From: Zanthoxylum bungeanum
Taxonomy: Eukaryota > Streptophyta > Magnoliopsida > Sapindales > Rutaceae
NCBI GenBank assembly: GCA_019454045.1
Contig: SKCR01017982.1
Span: 1 to 64,000 of the forward strand
Direction: 5' to 3'
Length of the DNA stretch: 64,000 nucleotides
A model generated the notes under the pieces. That model searched no databases. It was not told where the DNA came from and was given only the letters and a program-made list of their open reading frames with translations. The translations under genes were made by a program, and so were the position numbers. Positions within the stretch are counted from its first letter, which is position 1, and every line of letters starts with the position of its first letter. This document shows positions 2,228 to 15,238 of this stretch, piece by piece.

Positions 2228-2968
2228 TCATATTTGGGGACATACTGTCCTCCTTACAGTTCTTCTGCGTGATACTTCGAGAAAAAACTTTATATTTGGT
2301 TCATTTGTGGGCATTGTTTGATACCGACCGACCACATTGTAATCCCGGGGCCTGTTCCGTAAAGTTCTATCTCCTCGGTTTCCTCGGCTGCAGCGAGTCG
2401 AGCATTTTTTTTTGGCCAGACGCTTGGGCTTCTGTCTTCTTCTTCTTCTCCCTGGTTCCTTTGTCGTTTTCGGTTGTCTTCTGTGATGCAGAGAGTTTCT
2501 CGTGAGAGAGTTGCGAAGCAGCTGCGAGCTTTTCCTGGCTTCCCACACAATTCCAATCCCCTCCCGAGTGGGGAATTTCAGTTTCAGGTGGTAGCAGGAC
2601 ATCGCGGCTTTTGTTTTCATCATGAAGGGTCTCCCGACGATGGCCTGGTAACTGCTCATGCAGTCTACTACAGTGAAGTCTGTCATGATCGTCCGAGTCC
2701 GGGGATGTGTCCCGACAGTTATTGCCAACTGTATTCTTCCTAGCGGGATGACGGCTGATCCTCCGAAACCGTATAAGGGAGTGCTATCGTTGGTTAGGGT
2801 TGCATATTCTACCCCTAGGTCGTCTAGTGCTTCTCTGGAAATTATGTCAACCGCGCTCCCTGGGTCCACTAGGATTCTGTCTACCTCTGACCCACTGATG
2901 ATTGCCTTGATTATCAATGCATCGTCATGAGGGAAACTTACTCCTCGAGTATCCTCATCAGTGAACAT
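2228..2968 (-). pseudogene. Ty3/gypsy aspartic protease region (Tat-like element)
   Basis: The frame encodes a retroviral-type aspartic protease: ILVDPGSAVDI at residues 32-42 carries the catalytic Asp (DPGS in place of DTGS), and QAIVGRPFM at about 108-116 is the flap-distal ILGRP-like motif. From about residue 142 the reading is out of frame. The expected continuation (CGKPGKARSCFATL) is in another frame of the same strand, so there is a frameshift near 2550. Below 2228 the sequence passes into tandem repeats with no reverse transcriptase, RNase H or integrase, so pol beyond the protease has been lost. Its gag lies to the right (higher coordinates) on the same strand. Confidence 0.8.
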
Positions 2969-3088
2969 TATGGGTACCGCGACTGCTCCATGTAGCCCTG
3001 TGACCTGCTCTGTTTCTAAGACATCTGGTTCTCGGGTTCTGCTGTAATCTTTCCTTGACCGGTTAGAGTTTCCGGCCAGTGTTCTTCC

Positions 3089-4142
3089 TCATGCGATGAT
3101 ATTGATTTGGCGACCACGTGCTCTTTGTCTGGCTGTCATGACCTCGTGGTCAATGTATTTGTTTAGATACTCGTTTCGTGCTAGATCTTCCATTTGTTCT
3201 CGCAGATCTTTAACATCCGTCTGTTGCATGCCCTTTGGAGTTGTGGTGTACACAATAAGCCTTTTGGTTCCTTTTGTCCGGAGGGAATCCTCCTTTGGTC
3301 GGGTTCTACTAAGAGGCCTTTCCCCCTGGATCGCCATGACAATTTGCATTTGCCCTAGTGGTGTTCTTTAGGGAATGTATGCATCTTCCCCGACCCATGG
3401 TTTACTTGGGTCGCGCCATTCTCCTCTTGGTTGTCTCGTGAAGTGGTTTGAACTCCTTGTGCTTCGGGAGTGGTCTTCTGGATTCTCTTTCTGTTCGGCG
3501 GGCACCCGCCTTGCGGTTCTTTTCTCGGATGTGTTCCCTTTTTCGGGACACTTTTCTCTTCGTTTTCTACAAAACGAATTGTTTCGGGCGGGCCACCTCC
3601 AGGGCGGTGGCGAGTCCGGGGTGTACCTGGATCCTTAGGTGGGTCCATAGCCTCCCGATTTCAAGGCTCCTTTCAACTTTTCCAGGGCCTCGGTGGGTCA
3701 TACCCTCCGATTTCGAGTAGCATATAATGGTATCTTGCAATATTACCTTCAAAGTTCGTCGTCTCCTTGTTTCATAAGTCTTGGTCTTCCAATTATTTTT
3801 CTGGGGACACAAGCAGCCCCGTTGAGTGTCGTGAAATGATTTTCTCAGTTGGCGCTAAGCTGCTGAGTGCTTCTTGGGGCTAGGCGTCTATAACCATAGA
3901 ATGGCCGTTCCTGCTAGAGTTAAGGGGAACACTTTGCAGATGGTCGTCCACTGTTACCACCTTTGCAACCTCAATTAGTAGGAAAAAACCTTCAATGTGT
4001 TTTTGGATCGGTATGCCCGTTGTATGGTGTCATAGTCCCGGCATGCTGAATCTTTTTGGTGAATTCCTCTGATTTGTTCTTCTGTGAATGGGGACCTCAT
4101 CTTTTCCGCCGTCCTGACAATCCCCCTCCTGTTTGCTTATAG
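3089..4142 (-). pseudogene. Ty3/gypsy gag, C-terminal part (Tat-like element)
   Basis: Minus-strand gag remnant in several frames. Near 4100 it starts with MRSPFTEEQIRGIHQ-like sequence. At about 3240-3200 the frame reads CVHHNSKGHATDGC, a CCHC-type knuckle (C-x3-H-x4-H-x4-C) found at the gag-protease junction of such elements. It is followed after a frameshift by KDLREQMEDLARNEYLNKYI. The same block occurs in the element at 49058-52931 (CIYHNVRGHASNGC, then RDLREQVEDLVKKGYL), so both belong to one family. The reading continues on the far side of the Athila-like insertion (13926-14460). No continuous ORF survives. Confidence 0.75.
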
Positions 4143-4147
4143 GGTAT

Positions 4148-6226
4148 TGATGAGCGGAAAATATATCAATATTTACCGCCCCTTTTACTTAATATTTTGT
4201 TTAGTTTCTCGGGTTTGATGAACGTTTTGATGTGTTTTAGTTTTTTGCAGATAAAATAATATCGGGTCTTAATGAAATCATTTAGGACGAAATGTGGATC
4301 AAATAAGGGCAATTATTGGACTTGATATATTAATTTTGAAGATTGGAAATTTGAAAGGGCGTTTTGTGACGAAGTGCAGTTTTGGAAATTCCAGTTTTGC
4401 GCATCTGTCGTATTTTGGGCATAACTTTTACTCTCAATATCGGATTGAGCTGATTCAAGTTCCAGATTAAAGAAGACTCAAAGATCTACAACTTTGAAAG
4501 AGAAAATATTTTCGAATTCTGATGATTTCATGACCGAAATTGATGAACCATCCAGAAGTGTGTGGAGTGTAATTATTAAAAGTCATTATCAATCATTTTC
4601 AAAGCAAAATATTAATTAATTAATAATTAATAAAAATTATCAAATCAACACCAAACAAGATAAGAAATTAGTGGAGCAATTATGGATTTGGTGGAGTAAT
4701 TAGTGGAGAAATTAATAATGGAATTGGTGGAGAATTTGATTGATGATTTGATGGTGGCAAAATTTTGCCTATAAATACCAAGCCATTTCATTTGTAAAAT
4801 TCATACTTTCTTCTTTGAAATTCTTAATGAATAAATAAGAAGATTGTATCTAGTTTGTTTATTTTTAGTTTTCAGTAATTAATTTTCAGTTTCGCACTTT
4901 CTTTTTTTTTACTTTTCAGTTTTTACTTTCCGCAATTTACTTTTACTCACAATACTTTTCTTTCTTTAATTTTTCAGTTTTTACTTTTCAGTAATGAGGA
5001 GGTAATTTCCCAAGCTAGGGTGAAAGGTAATTCTTTTACTATTACTATTTAGATTAATCTCCCTTAAAAATAATATATTCACTATTTAAAATACTGATTA
5101 ATAAAGGATACCGCTATATTGGTCGGTTGGCAATTCAATTTAATCTGGTTTAAACCTGACTAATCAAGGATACCGCCAGATTGGTCGGTTGGTAAATTTA
5201 TTTTGGTACCGCCTTTATGGCTGGATTATGGACAAATATTACCGCCTATATGGCTGGTTGGACTTAATTTGACTTAATCAGGATACCGCCAGATTGGTCG
5301 GTTGGTAAAATAATATCACAAGTTTATATATTATTTTATGGGAGATATCTAAATTAGTAGTAGTAAAAGTAATTCCTTTTACCTTAGCATTTTATTTTAT
5401 TGTAATTTACTTTTCAGCTTTTACTTTACCGCAATTACTTTCAAGCATTTTCATTTTATGTCTTTTACTTTTAAGTTTTTATTAGCCCTAGTTATGTGTG
5501 GTAACTAAATTAGTTATCTGGGGTTGTGATGAAATCCAATATCACCGTTTTATAAGGGTTAGATTATAGCTTGGGTAATATAAAGATTTATTTATTGTGT
5601 CTTAAACTTAATGCTTTTTCATTAACTGGCCATTAATAAAATTGATCTGGTAAATCTAAAATGAACTAGACATAGGGATTTTAGGTTTCAGCCTTAGACT
5701 CAATAGCCCACGATCTTCCTTGAGGATAGATAACCCTTTAATAGATTTCCTTACAGGATAGGAATATACCTGTTGGGCGGGGGTAGCCATAATTGGAACT
5801 TAAACTTAATGAATCCAGATAATTTGGTTGACATAGACATATGGTTCAATTGGGTTAAACTGGGTATTTGTGTCTGACCATCGACAGAGGCTTACACATA
5901 ATTTAGTGTTCCAGGTTAATAAATCAATATATTACCCAACTTTAAGATAACCACTTCATCTTTAAAATGATATTGGAAGAAATCACAACCCTAGATAGTT
6001 TTTAATATTGAATTTTCTTAAAACCTATTTTCGACAATTTTATTTACTTGCTTTTAAATTTAGAATCGTCACCATTTCAAATCAATCAATCAACTTGTTA
6101 GATATTAGTAATCATTTGACCTCATAAAATTAATAGTTTAGATATTAAGTCCTCGTGGGATCGATATTTTTATACTACTTGAACGATACGTGCGCTTGCG
6201 TTATACGTGTGTGTTTACGCCGGTCA
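4148..6226 (+). repeat. 5' LTR of Athila-like element
   Basis: 2079-bp LTR starting tgatgagcgg and ending acgccggtca. A TATA-like box TATAAATA is at 4770-4777, followed by AATAAATAAG near 4828, consistent with promoter and polyadenylation signals. At about 5100-5310 the LTR holds several short repeats of taccgcc plus a gattggtcggttgg-type motif. It differs from the 3' LTR by a handful of short indels and substitutions visible by eye, for example in the first 300 bp. Confidence 0.95.
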
Positions 6227-6232
6227 AGTTTT

Positions 6233-6250
6233 TGGCGCCGTTGCCGGGGA
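6233..6250 (+). other. Primer-binding site (tRNA-Asp type)
   Basis: The sequence tggcgccgttgccgggga begins 6 nt after the LTR end. It is complementary to the 3' end of plant tRNA-Asp, the usual primer of Athila elements. Confidence 0.9.
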
Positions 6251-6357
6251 CTTATTTATCTTTCACTATTAATTTAGGGGTTAGATACGTTACTTGTATC
6301 TAATTTCTTTTTACTTATTGTTTTTGTTTTCTTGTGTTTCAGGTTCTCAGAAACTAC

Positions 6358-6970
6358 ATGAGACGAACCAGAAGCTTTGAACTCCGATCGCTTGACCCAG
6401 AAATTGAAAGAACCATCAGACAGTTGAGAAGGGAAAGGCGAGAAGGCCAAGAAGCTTTAGTCAACATGGAACCTGAACCTTTGAACGTTGCACCACCCAA
6501 TTCCCATTCGAGACAGAACCATTCCGGTGATTGACAGACTCATTTCTTGCATTGTACTTCCTCCCTTACCAGCAAATGCATGTGACATCAAAACATGCAT
6601 TCAGATGATTCAGCACTCAGTTCAGTTTGGGGGGAATGCAACTGAAGATCCGAATTCCCACATCAGCAACTTCCTGGAAGTTTGCGGCACTTTTAATTAC
6701 AACCGAGAAGCGGAAGAAGCAATGAGACTGCGAGTTTTTCCATACTCCTTGAAGGACAGAGCTAAAGCTGCTTGGCTACATTCACTACCACCAGGTTCTA
6801 TCACAACTTGGAACACTTTAGCCACCAAATTTCTTGCAAAGTACTTTCCACCAGCCAGAACCGGAAAGCTGAGGAATGACATCACATCCTTTGTACAACA
6901 AGATTCAGAATCCCTCTGCGAAGCTTGGGAAAGGTACAAAGATTTGCTCTCGGAAATGTCCTCACCATGA
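6358..6970 (+). pseudogene. Athila-like gag, N-terminal part (frameshifted)
   Basis: The gag structural protein would start at the ATG at 6358 (MRRTRSFELRSLDPEIERTI) and stops in this frame at 6532-6534. Homologous sequence continues in frame +2 from about 6500 to 6970 (HISNFLEVCGTFNYN, then a retrotransposon-gag core with LRVFPYSLKDRAKAAWLHSL and FLAKYFPPARTGKLRNDI). It then moves into the third frame near 6955, where KCPHHEIPKWLQVQTFYNGL continues. Two small indels therefore break an otherwise recognisable gag. Alternatively the protein is only made from the downstream frame. The leader 6251-6357 holds no gene. Confidence 0.8.
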
Positions 6971-9029
6971 GATTCCAAAATGGCTTCAAGTTCAAACATT
7001 CTATAATGGACTTTCTGGAATAATGAGAACCACAATCGATGCTGCTGCTGGAGGAGCCTTGATGGCAAAAGGAGAAGATCAAGCCTGGGACCTAATCGAA
7101 GAAATGGCCAACAACAATTCCTTGTGGCCAACAGAAAGGAGCATGATCCAAAGAATTGCAGGAATTTATGAAGTTGGAGCAAACACAGCAGTGAATACCA
7201 GGCTGGATCAGATATGCAAATGTCTAGAAACACTTAGCACGCAAGTTGTGAACATCACTGGATCCACAAGTTCACCATATGGAGGAGCACCAGAACCTAA
7301 ACAACATGAAGAAACGGTGAATTATGTCAACAATTTCAACAGACAGGGGAACAATCCATATTCCAACACCTACAACCCAGGGTGGAGGAATCATCCTAAT
7401 TTATCATGGAGTAACAATTCAGGCCAACAGCAGAACTATCCACCACCTGAATTTCAGCAACAGAACAAAGGCCAGGAGCATGAAAAAGAACCAGAAATGA
7501 AAGAATGGTTTGCAGAGATGTTCAAAAAGCAAGAAGCAAAATATGCTATGTTTCAATCCCAAGCAACATTAATTCAAAGTCAATATGCTTCTATTAAAGC
7601 ACTGGAGAATCAAATGGGACAACTGGCAAATGCTCAGAGTTACAGACCGCCAGGTACCCTTCCTAGCAACACAGAGCCAAATCCAAGGAACATGGGGAAG
7701 GAGCAATGTCATGCCATCATGTTAAAGAGCGGTACTGAAATCAACAAAGATGTTGGAGTCAATTCAACTGCTGAGGAAGTTCCAAAAGAAACAAAGCAAC
7801 AAATGGAGGAAAAAGAAGCAAAGGAAAAAGAACAGATCACTCCACCTCCACCTTTTCCTCAACGTCTTCAGAAGAACAAATTGGACAAGCAATTTTCCCG
7901 GTTCCTGGAAATATTCAAAAAGCTGCATATCAACATTCCATTTGCAGAAGCGTTGGAACAAATGCCCACCTATGCCAAATTCATGAAAGATATTCTTTCA
8001 CGAAAGCGGAGATTGGGGGATTACGAGACAGTAGCATTAACAGAAGAATGCAGTGCTATCATTCAGAGGAAACTTCCCCCAAAGTTGAAAGATCCTGGCA
8101 GTTTCACTGTTCCTTGCGTCATAGGAGAACATAACTTTGGTAAGGCTTTATGTGATTTAGGTGCTAGTGTTAACTTGATGCCTTTTTCTATTTTCAGGAA
8201 ATTACAGATTGGAGAAACAATGCCAACTTCAGTCTCACTGCAACTTGCTGATAGAACGCTCGTATTTCCAAGAGGTGTAGTTGAGGATGTGCTGGTCAAG
8301 GTTGACAAATTCATTTTCCCAGCAGATTTTATTGTCCTTGATATGGAGGAAGACGCAGACGTGCCAATCATCCTTGGGAGACCATTCTTGGCTACAGGTC
8401 GAACCATTATTGATGTACAAAAAGGAGAACTAACCATGAGGGTACAGGACCAAGAAGTAACATTCAATGTTTTCAAGGCCATGAATTTCCCAGATGATGA
8501 AAAGAAGGAGGAATGTTTCAAACTCGATGTGATACACAGTACCATTCAGAACTCTGATGAAAGACAAAGTTCTACTGACAAACTTAAAACATGTCAATTG
8601 CCTGTGGAGCCTAAAGATAAAACATCTTTTGCACTGAAAGAGCCAATTCTTGCTCTACAAGCAACAGAAGAGAAAAAGTTCCACCAGCTCAACGAATTGG
8701 AGGAATTTCACAATCAGCCTTTTGAAGATGCCAAATTGTACAAAGAAAAAGGCAAGAAAAGACATGATGAGAAGTTAGTGCGCATACAACTGGAACCAGG
8801 GCAGAAGGTACTGTTAAACAAATCAAGGGTGAAATTCTTCCCATGGAAGCCAAAATCACGGTGGTCAGGTCCATTTGTGATCACCAAAGTTTTACCAAAT
8901 AGAGCCGTTGAGATACATGATCCTGACGCTAACAAAACTTTCAAGGTTAAAAACAAGCGTGTCAAGCACTACTGGGGAGAATCATTTGAGCGACAAAAAG
9001 AAAGTGTTACACTTTCAGATCCAGCTTAA
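6958..9029 (+). pseudogene. Athila-like gag C-terminus, protease and integrase tail, RT/RH/IN core deleted
   Basis: One long frame (open from 6876, homologous from about 6958) carries the gag C-terminal half with TIDAAAGGALMAKGED, a Gln/Asn-rich spacer, an aspartic protease with CDLGASVNLMPFSIFRKL (Asp at about 8154) and IILGRPFLATGRTIID (about 8365), and a Lys/Glu-rich linker. After about 8650 it jumps to NELEEFHNQPFEDAKLYKEK and WKPKSRWSGPFVITKVLP, the C-terminal end of Athila integrase. The reverse transcriptase, RNase H and integrase catalytic core, normally about 1000 residues, are absent. The frame is kept across the join, so a gag-protease-integrase-tail fusion could be made, but it cannot reverse-transcribe or integrate. 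The stop is at 9027-9029. Confidence 0.9.
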
Positions 9030-9164
9030 CGTTCGAGAAGCCAAGTCTGGCTGACGACTTTAAACTTAGCGCTAGCAGGGAGGCAACCCATGCAATTTGT
9101 GTATTTTGTGTTGGTGTGATTTAATTTTTGTGTTTAATTTTGCATGCAGGTTAGTCATTTCAAA

Positions 9165-9704
9165 ATGGAAGAAGCTCTCGCAAATCTTCGCAAGCAATTT
9201 CCTTCTCTCCCTCAAAAATCTCTGATGAAAGTTTACAAAGCTCGCTTGGAACGGATGAGGTTACTGACAATTCACGGTGTTCCTAATGATATTCGTTGGG
9301 TAATTGAAGCACGAGTCCGATTGGCAGGTGAGTCTTCTGACTCTTTTATTTCACATCTGCCTGGTTTTGGAAGAAGCACCTATTCAAAGAAACGTAGAGC
9401 TAAGCAAATGGGTGTTTGTTACAAATGTGCACGATTTAATTGCAACACTCGTTGTCGTTCTTTAGGAATGGTGTCTGATAATCGCGAAGACAAAATTAAA
9501 TTCATTAGGGATGGCTTGAGAAAGGAGTCTTTAGATGATCTATCTTCGACTCTTGAGACGCATCCCAGTGGATATGTTAATAGCCATTCACAAATTACAT
9601 ACACAATTCCAAAAGGAAAGACAACTGTTAAGTCTCGGGAATCTGACTCAAAAAGACCCTGTTTGCCAATTTATAAGAAAATTGGATGGGAAGCTTGTCC
9701 CTGA
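9165..9704 (+). CDS. Cysteine-rich basic protein resembling viral nucleic-acid-binding CRPs
   Basis: 179-codon ORF from the ATG at 9165 (an in-frame ATG at 9144 lies upstream of a splice-acceptor-like AG at 9148-9149, so 9165 is preferred). Seen: an N-terminal half without Cys (MEEALANLRKQFPSLPQ), then GFGRSTYSKKRRAKQMG (residues 67-83) directly before Cys85, Cys88, Cys93 and Cys97 (CYKCARFNCNTRC), then DNREDKIKFIRDGL and a polar tail. A basic stretch abutting CxxC, two further Cys and an FIRxG-like segment is the layout of carla/allexivirus nucleic-acid-binding proteins (Viral_NABP family), some of which suppress RNA silencing. The spacing of the second Cys pair is shorter than in the viral proteins as I recall them. 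No Gag, Pol or Env feature is present. The family assignment is by eye. Confidence 0.6.
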   Translation: MEEALANLRKQFPSLPQKSLMKVYKARLERMRLLTIHGVPNDIRWVIEARVRLAGESSDSFISHLPGFGRSTYSKKRRAKQMGVCYKCARFNCNTRCRSLGMVSDNREDKIKFIRDGLRKESLDDLSSTLETHPSGYVNSHSQITYTIPKGKTTVKSRESDSKRPCLPIYKKIGWEACP

Positions 9705-9968
9705 CGCATAGACGTCAATCAAACCGTTACTTTTCTTGTAAATATTATATCTCTTTGTCTTTTCTAATAATTGATTTGTTTTGTTGTTTTCTTTTAATTT
9801 TTCTCCGACAGGATCCAGACCTTTTTTGACTATCACGATATTAATTCGTTACTAATCGTCCTCTGGAAGATATTTGTGCTGTTATTACTCACCCTTTTCA
9901 GGTACTATAAATTCAGCCCGTCATTGCACTTTTGAAGGCATCCGAGTTGAAAAAGAAATACATAAAAA
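9705..9968 (+). promoter_or_regulatory. Spacer with splice-like and TATA-like signals between the two extra ORFs
   Basis: Non-coding 264 bp. It contains a donor-like cttgtaaat (GT 9738-9739), a T-rich tract and an acceptor-like ctccgacag (AG 9810-9811), then a second acceptor-like acccttttcag (AG 9900-9901). TATAAATT follows at 9906-9913. From 9902 the first ATG reached is the LOG start at 9969, in good context (aaaaaATGG). The LOG ORF could therefore be expressed from a spliced RNA or from its own short promoter. This is pattern reading only. Confidence 0.4.
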
Positions 9969-10621
9969 ATGGAAGCCACTTCAAGAAGACGAGTTGAAAA
10001 CATCTGCGTGTTTTGCGGTAGTAGTGTTGGTACTAAGCCACAATACATAGAAGCAGCACAGAATTGGGTCGAGTCTTAGCTGCAAGGAATATGCACTTAA
10101 TATATGGCGGAGGCAATCTCGGACTTATGGGGATCGTTTCAAAGGCTGTACAGGAAGGAGGCAGTCATGTTTTGGGAATCATCCCAAAACCCTTGGCAGA
10201 GGCAAATCTTATTGGATCATCAAACGGAGAGGAACTGATCGTGCCAGGTATGTCTGAACGACTGGTAGAAATGATTAACCGTGCTGATGCTTTTATCGCT
10301 TTGCCAGGTGGCTTGGGTACATTGGAGGAAATTTTTATAGTTCTATCTTGGGCGAACCTGAACATACACCAGAAACCGCTTGGACTGCTCAACGTTGATG
10401 GATTTTATGATTTTCTTTGTGTGTTTCTTGATGATGCTCGGAGAAATGGGTTCGTGTCAAAACCTATGAAAGAACTCCTCTTCACTGCCAGAACTGCCCC
10501 GGATCTAATTGACCAACTCATAGCCTATGAACCACAAGTTGACCCTATCCTTTCAAAGATAAATTGGTTCGAAGACAATCGTGGTAAGAGGCGTCGAATT
10601 AATCTGGATCTTAACCTTTAA
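9969..10621 (+). CDS. LOG: LOG-like cytokinin riboside 5'-monophosphate phosphoribohydrolase, intronless, inside a retrotransposon
   Basis: LOG enzymes release free cytokinin bases from cytokinin nucleotides in the cytosol. From the ATG at 9969 the frame reads RRRVENICVFCGSSVGTKP, the family N-terminus. An apparent 1-nt deletion near 10058-10062 shifts it, and the rest (ELGRVLAARNMHLIYGGGNL on) is open to the stop at 10621. Seen: YGGGNLGLMG, PKPLAEANLIG, MSERLVEM (family MxxRK, here with Leu for Lys), PGGLGTLEE (10304-10330) and KPLGLLNVDGFY. The C-terminus ends RGKRRRINLDLNL, a basic cluster plus an LxLxL EAR-type motif that ordinary LOGs lack as far as I know. Plant LOG genes usually have several introns; this has none, suggesting capture of a spliced mRNA. 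A protein starting at ATG 10092 would lack the nucleotide-binding N-terminus, so activity is uncertain. Confidence 0.88.
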
Positions 10622-11847
10622 TTTCCTGTAGATTTTCAGCTAACCAGGTACGACCTTCTTAACTCTCCTTATTACTGTTCAAGACATTGGGGACAATGTC
10701 TCATTTAGGTTTGGGGGAAGGAATTAGTTGATTAGTACCTTGTTTTTAGTTTGTGTGTTGTTTTTATTTTTAGTCCAAAATTTTTCGAAAAATACAAAAA
10801 AATTGAAAATTTTCAAAAATTACAAAAATATTTTGCATTTTTGTGTTTTTATTTTGACTAAAAAAGTGAAATTGGTAAGAGATAGCCGAGTAAGGAGTTT
10901 CCACTCCTGAGACGTATCTCAAACCTATTTCGAAACAAGTTAATTTTTGTTTATTTCATTTTGAATTATTTAATTTGTGAATTCTCCTTAAAACTGACTA
11001 AAAAGGAATCTTCATATGTTTAGTTAGCAGATATTATCAACATGCATAGTAACATACGGACATGAGCTGTAATTGAAAAGTTTGTAATATTCAGTGCTCT
11101 AGTTTAATTGGAGGAAGCATCTCAAAAAGTGATGGATAAAAAAAAAAAAAAAAAATTTCTCTTCTGATGTAAAAAAACCAAGGTAGTCTAAGACTCCGGG
11201 TTATTAAGTCTGTCAGGGTGTTTTTAACACCTGGTGCCCTAAAGCCAACTGGTTTGGGAGCCACCGACCCAAAGCTCGCTACATAGGCAGAAGATATTGT
11301 ATATAAATAAAAATAAAAAAAAAAATCAGAAAAATCAAAAAAAAAAAAAAAAAAATTTACTCCATTACTATAAAAGGTGTGAAATCTAATAGAACTTAGG
11401 ACAAAAATATTATCTCTTATCAATTGCACTTGTGACTGTTGTGGGAAAAAATGAGTTGATTAATATTTTGTTAGCTGTGTATATGGAGAATGGTAAAAAT
11501 AATCGGAGAATTTACTTATTCGGTAATTTAGAATAAAACAAAACAACTAGTAACTTGGAGTAGAAGTTTCACCTGATTAGTCACTAACATCTTTATTCTC
11601 TTTTCGCTTGTCTTTTTGCTTTTGTGTGCATTAGTTTTACTACCTTTTTACTTTGTAAAATGTTTGTGGGTATCATTGCTGTAAACCCTCACGAGACTAC
11701 AACTCGTCCACTAGGGACACCTAGGGGTTTAAAGGCTTGTTGCATATGCTAAATGCAACCGTGATCCCTACGAAAGTGGCTTAGTTTAATTTTAATTTTA
11801 TTTTGTTGTTTTGCTCGAGGACTAGCAAAATGTTAGGTTTGGGGGTG
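10622..11847 (+). other. 3' non-coding region and polypurine tract of the Athila-like element
   Basis: AT-rich region without a credible gene. It has attggggacaatgtctca followed by ttaggtttgggggaag near 10686-10722, a motif pair common just inside Athila 3' ends, and long A-runs near 11138-11156 and 11338-11355. The polypurine tract ttaggtttgggggtg (11833-11847) abuts the 3' LTR. Confidence 0.75.
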
Positions 11848-13920
11848 TGATGAGCGGAAAATATATCAATATTTACCGCCCCTTTTACTTAATATTTTGT
11901 TTAGTTTCTCGGGTTTGATGAACGTTTTGATGTGTTTTAGTTTATTTTGCAGATAAAATAATATCGGGTCTTAATGAAATCATTTAGGACGAAATGTGGA
12001 TCAAATAAGGGCAATTATTGGACTTGATATATTAATTTTGAAGATTGGAAATTTGAAAGGGCGTTTTGACGAAGTGCAGTTTTGGAAATCCAGTTTTGCG
12101 CATCTGTCGTATTTTGGGCATAACTTTTTACTCAGATATCGGATTGAGCTGATTCAAGTTCCAGATTAAAGAAGACTCAAAGATCTACAACTTTGAAAGA
12201 GAAAATATTTTCGAATTCTGATGATTTCATGACCGAAATTGATGAACCATCCAGAAGTGTGTGGAGTGTAATTATTAAAAGTCATTATCAATCATTTTCA
12301 AAGCAAAATATTAATTAATTAATAATTAATAAAAATTAAAATCAACACCAAACAAGATAAGCAATTAGTGGAGCAATTATGGATTTGGTGGAGTAATTAG
12401 TGGAGAAATTAATAATGGATTGGTGGAGAAATTGATGGATGATTTGATGGTGGCAAAATTTTGCCTATAAATACCAAGCCATTTCATTTGTAAAATTCAT
12501 ACTTTCTTCTTTGAAATTCTTAATGAATAAATAAGAAGATTGTATCTAGTTTGTTTATTTTTAGTTTTCAGTAATTAATTTTCAGTTTCGCACTTTCTTT
12601 TTTTACTTTTCAGTTTTTACTTTCCGCAATTTACTTTTACTCACAATACTTTTCTTTCTTTAATTTTTCAGTTTTTACTTTTCAGTAATGAGGAGGTAAT
12701 TTCCCAAGCTAGGGTGAAAGGTAATTCTTTTACTATTACTATTTAGATTAATCTCCCTTAAAAATAATATATTCACTATTTAAAATACTGATTAATAAAG
12801 GATACCGCTATATTGGTCGGTTGGCAATTCAATTTAATCTGGTTTAAACCTGACTAATCAAGGATACCGCCAGATTGGTCGGTTGGTAAATTTATTTTGG
12901 TACCGCCTTTATGGCTGGATTATGGACAAATATTACCGCCTATATGGCTGGTTGGACTTAATTTGACTTAATCAGGATACCGCCAGATTGGTCGGTTGGT
13001 AAAATAATATCACAAGTTTATATATTATTTTATGGGAGATATCTAAATTAGTAGTAGTAAAAGTAATTCCTTTTACCTTAGCATTTTATTTTATTGTAAT
13101 TTACTTTTCAGCTTTTACTTTACCGCAATTACTTTCAAGCATTTTCATTTTATGTCTTTTACTTTTAAGTTTTTATTAGCCCTAGTTATGTGTGGTAACT
13201 AAATTAGTTATCTGGGGTTGTGATGAAATCCAATATCACCGTTTTATAAGGGTTAGATTATAGCTTGGGTAATATAAAGATTTATTTATTGTGTCTTAAA
13301 CTTAATGCTTTTTCATTAACTGGCCATTAATAAAATTGATCTGGTAAATCTAAAATGAACTAGACATAGGGATTTTAGGTTTCAGCCTTAGACTCAATAG
13401 CCCACGATCTTCCTTGAGGATAGATAACCCTTTAATAGATTTCCTTACAGGATAGGAATATACCTGTTGGGCGGGGGTAGCCATAATTGGAACTTAAACT
13501 TAATGAATCCAGATAATTTGGTTGACATAGACATATGGTTCAATTGGGTTAAACTGGGTATTTGTGTCTGACCATCGACAGAGGCTTACACATAATTTAG
13601 TGTTCCAGGTTAATAAATCAATATATTACCCAACTTTAAGATAACCACTTCATCTTTAAAATGATATTGGAAGAAATCACAACCCTAGATAGTTTTTAAT
13701 ATTGAATTTTCTTAAAACCTATTTTCGACAATTTTATTTACTTGCTTTTAAATTTAGAATCGTCACCATTTCAAATCAATCAATCAACTTGTTAGATATT
13801 AGTAATCATTTGACCTCATAAAATTAATAGTTTAGATATTAAGTCCTCGTGGGATCGATATTTTTATACTACTTGAACGATACGTGCGCTTGCGTTATAC
13901 GTGTGTGTTTACGCCGGTCA
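11848..13920 (+). repeat. 3' LTR of Athila-like element
   Basis: 2073 bp, starts tgatgagcgg, ends acgccggtca, with the TATA-like box at 12466-12473. It is almost identical to the 5' LTR. The flanking ggtat at 13921-13925 matches 4143-4147. Confidence 0.95.
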
Positions 13921-13925
13921 GGTAT

Positions 13926-14460
13926 ACTCCCATTTGACCAACTCCTCTCGCAGCCAGATTTCATGCTGATTATCTTTGTTGCCATTCCGACTCACGCGGT
14001 CTCCTTTCCTTTCTGTTATCCCGGGGAGGTGCTTCTCCGGGCGGTGCTTCTCGGACTTCTGCGTCATATCTTTCTCCTTGCGTTCGCCGGGTGTTTGGCG
14101 AAGGCTATCATAGGAGGGGTCTGGTGACGATTTGTCACTCTCTTCCTCCCATGTGTCCTCGGTCTGGGGAATCTCCCTGAACCACGACAGATCTTACCCT
14201 GTAAGGATCCTCCTCCGGGGTCTGTCGTCCGCACTTATTATCGACATTCTCTTTCCTTCTGCAGGTAATTCCTTCGTCGGCTAGTCCCGCCATCGAATTT
14301 TCCATTGTGTGCCTCCTTCTATCTTTCCACCGGTCTACTATGGTTTTTAGCAGAGTTTGGCTTTCACTTTCCCTCCTTTCTTTCCTGAGGTTCTCCTTCA
14401 ATCTTCTCCATCCAATCTGCGCCGAGCTCCCTGATGGTTGTGGCTTCCGTCTTCCGCCAT
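13926..14460 (-). pseudogene. Ty3/gypsy gag, N-terminal part (Tat-like element), split by the Athila insertion
   Basis: On the minus strand, shortly after the primer-binding site, an ATG at 14460 opens MAEDGSHNHQGARRR and is stopped after about 20 codons. The paralogous element at 52085 starts MAEDGNHRSSGTS, which supports this start. The remainder reads in other frames as Arg/Glu-rich sequence (LRKERRESESQTLL). The coding continues beyond the insertion at 4142 and below. Several indels make it non-functional. Confidence 0.6.
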
Positions 14461-14492
14461 TGTCTCACTACGCGAGTTGCTTTTTGTTGAGT

Positions 14493-14511
14493 TCCCCACA
14501 GCGGCGCCAAC
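14493..14511 (-). other. Primer-binding site of the Tat-like element
   Basis: The minus strand reads gttggcgccgctgtgggga immediately inside the LTR. The element at 49058-52931 has gttggcgccgtctgtgggga at the same place. The first bases match the tRNA-Asp-type PBS; the rest diverges. It fixes the element orientation as minus. Confidence 0.7.
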
Positions 14512-15238
14512 TGTTGACGGTTGATTTTGGTCTCAGGGCAATTGGGAATATCACTCCCGAGGAAATCCTCATTCAATAGTGAATTTGTTTGGTTATGGGG
14601 GACAAAAGGCAAATTTAGCGAAAAAACATAACACACCAATCAAAAAGGAGATTTAACGTGGTTCGGTGGATTTGGATCCGACCTACGTCCACGGACACAA
14701 AAAAGATGGTACTTTTATTACTTTAACACTCTTCTCTTCGGGTCTCTACAAGTCAGAGCTTGAAGATTCAGATCACTAATTTTTTGATGATGCCTTTTAC
14801 ACATACCTGTCCTCCTATTTTATAATAGTATAGAAATCAGACTCCTATTTGAATAAGAATCCTATTGAATTTAGTCTATTCTCCTTGCAAGGATTCCTAC
14901 CTAGCCTGATTTCCCTTCTCTTTTCTTATTCCTTTTCGGATTCTGACTTCATTTCCTTGTGAGAGTAGGATAACTCGTTTATCTTATCCGCAAGAATAGA
15001 GTGTCGTCATTTTGAACGCGTCTCGCCGTCTGGTCGGTTTTCATGAGGTCGGTCATGACAGTCTTTTATGCTGAGAGTGTTTTCTGCCGACCTTAAAGTG
15101 CTCGGTCACCCGAACCAAAGTGGTCGGTCTTTACATGTTGTGGTCGGGTCGGTTTTGATGATCTCAACCAGTAAGGGAATTACCCTTTGTCCTCGTCGTG
15201 CTGTCTTAATGTTATATGCGTGAAAACCACCATCAACA
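14512..15238 (-). repeat. 5' LTR of the minus-strand Tat-like element
   Basis: About 727 bp, plus-strand ends tgttgacggt and accatcaaca. It is homologous to the LTRs at 49058-49886 and 52138-52931. It is the 5' LTR because the PBS and gag lie to its left on the minus strand. The partner 3' LTR would be left of the window, so no TSD can be tested. Confidence 0.9.

Follow-up and report, generated by a model that had tools for sequence, protein, structure and literature searches.

LTR retrotransposons of a very abundant family in the genome of Zanthoxylum bungeanum carry a module of two accessory genes that lies after pol and ahead of the 3' LTR. One gene encodes a carlavirus-type nucleic-acid-binding protein (NABP) with a zinc finger, the other a protein derived from the plant enzyme LONELY GUY (LOG). 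Both genes are under purifying selection, and the data suggest that the host enzyme has been given a new role in the element. We define "the window" as the whole 64,000-nucleotide stretch analyzed here (contig SKCR01017982.1 of assembly GCA_019454045.1, positions 1 to 64,000), and "retro-LOGs" as the LOG-derived proteins of such elements. Coordinates refer to the window, and features lie on its forward strand unless stated otherwise.

The LTR retrotransposon in the window is 9.8 kb long, runs from LTR to LTR at 4148-13920 and, as the original prediction had it, is flanked by an exact target-site duplication (GGTAT at 4143-4147 and again at 13921-13925). Comparison of the 5' LTR (4148-6226, 2079 bp) with the 3' LTR (11848-13920, 2073 bp) gave 3 mismatches and 14 gap columns. 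At usual plant substitution rates, 3 substitutions in about 2.07 kb of LTR correspond to well under a million years. The surplus of gap columns over substitutions may reflect indel errors in the assembly, so some of the frame breaks described below could be artefacts. The primer binding site (TGGCGCCGTTGCCGGGGA, 6233-6250), which begins six bases past the 5' LTR, is one we take to be of the tRNA-Asp type and presumably links the element to Athila; a polypurine tract-like stretch (11834-11847) lies ahead of the 3' LTR. A gag ORF piece, delimited from stop to stop (6485-6970), matches Pfam Retrotrans_gag at 1.1e-15. It is followed by a single open frame (6873-9029) that holds the remainder of gag and two parts which resemble ORFs of the related sequence L107 and were named by eye: a protease region (about 7848-8360; 47% over 171 aa) and a C-terminal piece of integrase (about 8685-9023; 43% over 113 aa). 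This frame matched no Pfam family at all, nor did it match the next ORF of L107, which itself has no Pfam name. Since only about 325 bases separate the protease region from the integrase piece, there is no room for reverse transcriptase (RT), RNase H and the integrase core, and the copy is presumably non-autonomous. Beyond these lie the NABP ORF (9165-9704) and the LOG-derived ORF (9969-10621). The original prediction had passed over the NABP ORF, the LxLxL tail of the LOG and the absence of RT, RNase H and integrase core. The window element is a young, internally deleted member of its family. It had been called Athila-like, and judged by structure (primer binding site, 5-bp target-site duplication, extra ORFs 3' of the position of pol) it is probably of Athila type. 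A Pfam scan of its ORFs gave no match to Athila ORF-1 (PF03078), a domain present in 16% of Athila elements according to the sections of a survey available to us (PMC6317226).

Two other features of the window were named by eye. A retropepsin-like ORF at 2228-3088 on the reverse strand comes from another gypsy-type element, and a repeated peptide occurs at 1440-2095 in ORFs on both strands.

A more complete layout is preserved in L107, which is the 7 kb of sequence upstream of a LOG copy from a second subfamily (group B; the window copy belongs to group A). Its order is PBS-like site, protease region, RT end, RNase H, integrase, integrase C-terminal piece, NABP and LOG. RNase H (5.6e-33), the integrase zinc-binding domain (1.5e-12) and the integrase core (9.7e-09) were named by Pfam; the RT end reached 18.2 bits with RVT_1, below the cut-off of 29.6, the pol frames are broken, and gag was not named. 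Because NABP and LOG follow the integrase in L107, the module is placed 3' of pol. In L106, which lies upstream of a further group A copy, the distance from PBS to LOG is the same as in the window.

Some loci are built differently. L089 and L090 have, in place of NABP, an upstream ORF with a zinc-knuckle-like motif (CVICDGNHPSDQC); these two and L108 share the zinc-knuckle-like ORF together with a LOG in which Arg99 is replaced by Gln, and L108 has a PBS-like site about 1.8 kb ahead of LOG. The three appear to represent a different, pol-less carrier of LOG. A scan of viral contigs with a LOG pattern returned 5 pattern matches, none of which is a relative.

The prediction of a sense-strand, intronless plant LOG ORF inside the element was borne out. 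The ORF matches Pfam PF03641 at 1.2e-35 and NCBIfam TIGR00730 at 132.5 bits (cut-off 96.35), and the nearest solved structure by sequence is 2a33, Arabidopsis At2g37210. A structure model of the 217-aa LOG of one copy (pLDDT 84.5, tail 202-217 disordered) has 2a33 as its best fold match as a monomer (TMt 0.95), so that the window LOG has both the PF03641/TIGR00730 match and the LOG fold that mark a type I LOG. Against the NCBIfam equivalog CtkRMPhLog (NF058542) it scored below the cut-off, 100.1 versus 300 bits; the query began after residue 31, and the model may suit some members of the family and not others.

The predicted frame break near position 10060 is present in this assembly: residues 1-31 are read at 9969-10061 and residues 29-217, in another frame, at 10052-10618. 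When 84 other loci were compared, the same break was found only in L021, L002, L022 and L026. L021 is the window itself, and the other three are all on contig C35371. This is a duplicate contig, with 100% identity to the window over the three intervals examined (3017-4267, 8917-11117 and 13867-15117). The break was therefore rejected as a family trait. Redundant contigs also account for L019/L020, L062/L063 and L066/L067, and this redundancy inflates copy counts.

The NABP ORF scored 27.5 bits with Viral_NABP (3.7e-06; gathering cut-off 23) and 26.0 bits with Carla_C4 (8.9e-06; cut-off 20.9) when the query started at its second codon, and the match is limited to roughly residues 36-119. In this copy the end of the protein typical of the family (9583-9708) is encoded in a different frame. 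A search for relatives returned 188 at E <= 0.001; the largest cluster among the 120 listed has 566 members, and the sources named among them are Xanthoceras, Populus, Citrus, Acer, Rhamnella and Orobanche. Forty retro-NABPs scanned with Pfam matched Viral_NABP in 36 cases and Carla_C4 in 34. In one Orobanche gene model (P0229) a protease-like region, recognized by eye, is joined to NABP. A search against PDB sequences gave nothing at E <= 1, and the structure model reached a pLDDT of 55.

The two accessory genes travel together in most loci. Every one of 60 loci fetched by NABP (58 distinct, one being L026 on the window's duplicate contig) has a LOG match downstream. Conversely, NABP lies upstream in 16 of 20 loci fetched by LOG, and within 1.6 kb upstream in 2 of 6 loci of P0012 type, whose LOGs belong to more distant subfamilies; it was not found in 4 of each set, so the pair is not obligatory. 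Beyond the Zanthoxylum genome, NABP and LOG are neighbouring locus tags in Xanthoceras (ACOSQ2_032186 and ACOSQ2_032187; P0247, P0139), two Citrus gene models (P0208, P0234) hold NABP and part of LOG, and the pair occurs on contigs of 8723 bases (P0291, P0147) and 4511 bases (P0110, P0142), matched by size and source only.

The LOG-bearing copies number at least hundreds in this genome and fall into several subfamilies. These counts are lower bounds, since only the best 150 of 62,792-68,670 first-look candidates (a loose count) were scored per query. With the window LOG as query, the best 150 hits were 96-99% identical and 148 of them had no internal stop. The P0012 protein retrieved another 150 scored hits at 71-76% identity to itself, revealing further subfamilies, and with P0058 as query 140 of 150 hits of full or nearly full length were free of stops. 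The original prediction had proposed a search for further copies without the frameshift and a comparison of substitution rates among copies, either of which might have exposed a one-off fragment; the hundreds of scored copies, together with the selection described below, rule that out.

Because the hits to the window LOG are biased toward good copies, the selection estimates for LOG were made on loci that had been fetched by NABP. These 60 loci were taken from 150 scored NABP hits (those at ranks 2-21, together with 20 each from the bottom and the middle of the list; NABP is free of stops in 12 of the bottom loci and all 20 of the middle ones) and yield 58 distinct LOG rows, L026 included. LOG is full-length in 59 of the 60. 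In these 59 copies the ratio of non-synonymous to synonymous rates (dN/dS), binned by rising divergence, was 0.157, 0.203, 0.248, 0.309 and 0.254, whereas reading the two wrong frames gave 0.54-0.84 and 1.6-4.0, so that neutral decay does not describe the set as a whole. Variants present in at least three of the 59 copies were distributed over codon positions 1:2:3 as 33:14:64 for transitions and 13:4:22 for transversions; the third-position excess extends to transversions, so methylation-driven transitions alone cannot explain the pattern. The ratio was lowest in the active-site stretch (0.151). Between subfamilies the mean LOG dN/dS was 0.108-0.298, with mean dS between group A and the other groups (1.3-1.66) near saturation. 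Within groups it was 0.21 (A), 0.33 (B), 0.17 (C), 0.17 (D) and 0.66 (E), where groups B-E derive from 20 loci out of the 150 P0012 hits and their selection by similarity to P0012 lowers within-group dN; L088, which has an internal stop, was placed in no group. NABP gave 0.305, versus 1.05 and 1.43 in the wrong frames, in the 16 of 20 LOG-fetched loci that have it (the 20 are 18 distinct rows, window and duplicate included).

These data bear on the explanation that LOG is a functionless host fragment carried along as a passenger. Both accessory ORFs of the window copy have frame breaks, group E is decaying, and only 13 of the 59 NABP-chosen LOG copies have neither indel nor stop, so single copies do decay. 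Against this, shared variants and comparisons among subfamilies both show purifying selection, and the length of about 217 aa is kept across several plant families. We regard the passenger explanation as highly improbable.

The sampled retro-LOGs group apart from host LOG7. In a 54-row tree, built by a quick search from 15 of 31 host LOG7-like proteins, 33 of 162 other proteins and 6 loci of the Zanthoxylum genome, the 39 retro-LOGs split from the 15 host proteins with an SH-aLRT of 100. They come from Xanthoceras, Acer, Populus, Reevesia, Diplodiscus, Paulownia and Zanthoxylum itself, among other sources, and the Xanthoceras and Acer types lie near the base of the clade. The closest named host relatives are LOG7; the host side of the tree consists of LOG7-like proteins, and a single capture is to be understood relative to that set. 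A recent one-off capture is not supported, since the sampled retro-LOGs of rosids and Paulownia form one clade.

The Populus trichocarpa protein P0048, annotated "LOGL10", falls inside the retro-LOG clade, and the Populus "LOGL10" proteins P0048, P0050 and P0084 all end in LDLSLSL. They are probably transposon genes annotated as host genes.

The available part of a study of CgLOG (PMC4979012) proposes Arg99 and Glu122 as catalytic residues and Met96, His97, Lys100, Glu125 and Trp129 as binding the prenyl group. All nine active-site positions are kept in the host LOG7-like proteins (31/31 each). The window LOG has PGGxGTxxE, Arg99 and Glu122, as most retro-LOGs do, and carries Ser, Leu and Ile at His97, Lys100 and Glu125 (CgLOG numbers). 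The original prediction had listed Leu in place of the Lys of MxxRK as a caveat. The replacement is real, but as a sign of decay in this copy it was rejected: outside a Sapindaceae-type set, Lys100 is found in 1/140 retro-LOGs and Glu125 in 1/142, with His97 in 30/140, Trp129 in 138/142, Arg99 in 128/140 and Glu122 in 137/142. The Sapindaceae-type set (n = 20; members from Xanthoceras and Acer, with four further proteins at 79-81% identity to P0094), which was assembled after many of its members were seen to keep Lys100, has His97, Lys100, Trp129 and Glu122 in 20/20 and Glu125, Met96 and Arg99 in 18/20. P0058 is the sole protein outside this set with Lys100 and the sole one with Glu125, and the two residues thus seem to change together. 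At the Zanthoxylum loci Arg99 is kept in 14 of the 20 that have a residue there and is Gln in six (four of four in group C, two in group D); Thr119 is kept in 12/20 and replaced in 8/20.

The original prediction held that the element's LOG makes active cytokinin, which would favour cell division or meristem identity where the element replicates. The relationship to LOG7, the modelled fold match to 2a33, the general retention of Arg99 and Glu122, and the 20 Sapindaceae-type proteins, which keep the prenyl-site residues in 18-20 cases and Arg99 in 18, are consistent with it. Outside the Sapindaceae type, however, almost every lineage sampled, including that of the window, has lost Lys100 and Glu125 to other residues, and in CgLOG the alanine mutants of AMP-binding or catalytic residues, S19 excepted, lost their activity almost completely, as the portion of PMC4979012 at hand reports without itemising individual mutants. 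Judged by these residues, cytokinin activation is plausible for the Sapindaceae-type branch and doubtful for the window's lineage, and as an account of the retro-LOGs we consider it distinctly unlikely. Predicting activity from residues has limits, since plant LOGs that share the known residues for substrate binding and catalysis yield different products, iP or iPR (PMC11593424, in part).

Alternatively, retro-LOG could be a phosphoribohydrolase or phosphohydrolase acting on another nucleotide and altering a nucleotide pool or signal, with the tail serving nuclear placement only. The catalytic residues are largely kept while the prenyl pocket has changed, the lowest dN/dS falls in the active-site stretch, and the variable products of plant LOGs (in the excerpted PMC11593424) agree with this. 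The Arg99 to Gln replacement in 6 of the 20 Zanthoxylum loci (groups C and D) should however kill such an enzyme, and these groups are still at a dN/dS of 0.17, a value from few pairs in loci whose choice by similarity lowers dN. We rate this possibility as rather unlikely. For the window's lineage, re-use outside cytokinin activation, either as a nuclear repressor or on another nucleotide substrate, is more likely than cytokinin activation.

The C-terminus would fit the first of these two uses. The window LOG ends in a basic stretch followed by LDLNL, which fits the LxLxL given as the EAR consensus in the consulted part of PMC9956375. An exact LxLxL end was found in 116/162 non-host proteins, the rest including fragments and Sapindaceae types, and in 0/31 host proteins; because the host proteins were chosen by name and by the extent of their alignment, the absence of the tail from them is partly built in, which is not true of the nine active-site residues. 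In the 59 group A copies several positions of the tail, a region disordered in the model, are nearly invariant (K207 59/59, N212 59/59, L213 58/59, D214 59/59, L215 58/59, L217 56/56), and dN/dS over the whole tail is 0.30, no lower than in most of the protein. The basic stretch, read by eye, may contain a nuclear signal. Elsewhere in the genome, exact LxLxL ends occur in 5/7 group B and 4/4 group E copies and in 0/8 of groups C and D, most of which end in LDIDLNR. Given these ends, the Arg99 to Gln changes and the Thr119 replacements, one mechanism may not fit all loci. An EAR motif is insufficient to mediate interaction with TPL, according to the part of PMC7446885 available.

The scenario that we tentatively prefer, and place a little short of probable, is that retro-LOG is now a nuclear nucleotide-binding protein that recruits corepressors beside NABP and does not make cytokinin. 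A spliced host mRNA of LOG7 type would have been captured once, long ago, in core eudicots. The captured gene would then have gained the basic and LxLxL tail, and the cytokinin-prenyl pocket would have been lost in all sampled lineages except the Sapindaceae-type one and P0058. The resulting protein, presumably dimeric like LOGs, would enter the nucleus, where its EAR-like tail would draw host corepressors of the TOPLESS type, and it would act beside NABP to damp host control of the element. A broader version, in which NABP and the rebuilt LOG form a two-protein "effector" module of a core-eudicot LTR lineage, the LOG being a nuclear EAR-type repressor and the pair manipulating host transcription or silencing in a manner comparable to viral and pathogen effectors, is speculative and somewhat unlikely.

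What most extra genes do for the retrotransposons of plants is obscure; in this case a very abundant family has kept a host hormone enzyme under selection and pairs it with a type of protein otherwise known from plant RNA viruses. Retro-LOG, altered precisely where cytokinin is proposed to bind, offers a directly testable example of how a host enzyme may be recast by a transposon. The Populus "LOGL10" proteins are also a warning that some annotated genes of that name are probably transposon genes.

LOG in LTR elements has been reported before, contrary to the original prediction. Steinbauerova et al. are said to have described, in 2011, two Athila-like elements with LOGL4-like ORFs. The accessible text of a 2022 paper (PMC9289625), which cites Steinbauerova 2011 for LOG in such elements, reports that Gypsy-type consensuses from two Citrus species contain a YgdH domain, which it connects with the LONELY GUY family; when its filter is not applied, the domain is also reported for Populus trichocarpa. 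The term "LOG" was not found in PMC7264820. Extra ORFs were counted only from 250 codons up in PMC6317226, as far as the part seen indicates, and the NABP and LOG ORFs would escape that survey. In the literature searched, mostly open-access titles and abstracts, we recognized no precedent for the NABP pairing, the selection on LOG, the pocket change or the tail.

The Ty3/gypsy elements of Citrus and Populus with a LOG (YgdH/LOGL4) extra ORF thus have the LOG domain in common with the window element, and the parts of those accounts consulted do not mention an NABP partner, selection, pocket change or LxLxL tail. Orchid gypsy elements with an AlkB-type 2-ODD domain, in the same partly available source (PMC9289625), likewise keep a host-derived enzyme domain in a gypsy lineage; theirs is another enzyme with demonstrated activity, whereas retro-LOG is known from sequence. 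The pathogen effector HaRxL21 (PMC7446885, in part) resembles retro-LOG in being a foreign protein with a C-terminal EAR-type motif, which in retro-LOG is a sequence motif alone. The cysteine-rich proteins of carlaviruses (Viral_NABP, PF01623; Carla_C4, PF05515) share a basic motif and a cysteine cluster with the retro-NABPs, and are genes of RNA viruses, whereas the window NABP is encoded by an LTR element. Host LOG7/LONELY GUY has the fold, PGGxGTxEE and the catalytic Arg and Glu in common with retro-LOG; unlike it, retro-LOG is intronless, has its prenyl-pocket residues replaced, ends in a basic and LxLxL tail, and is borne by a retrotransposon.
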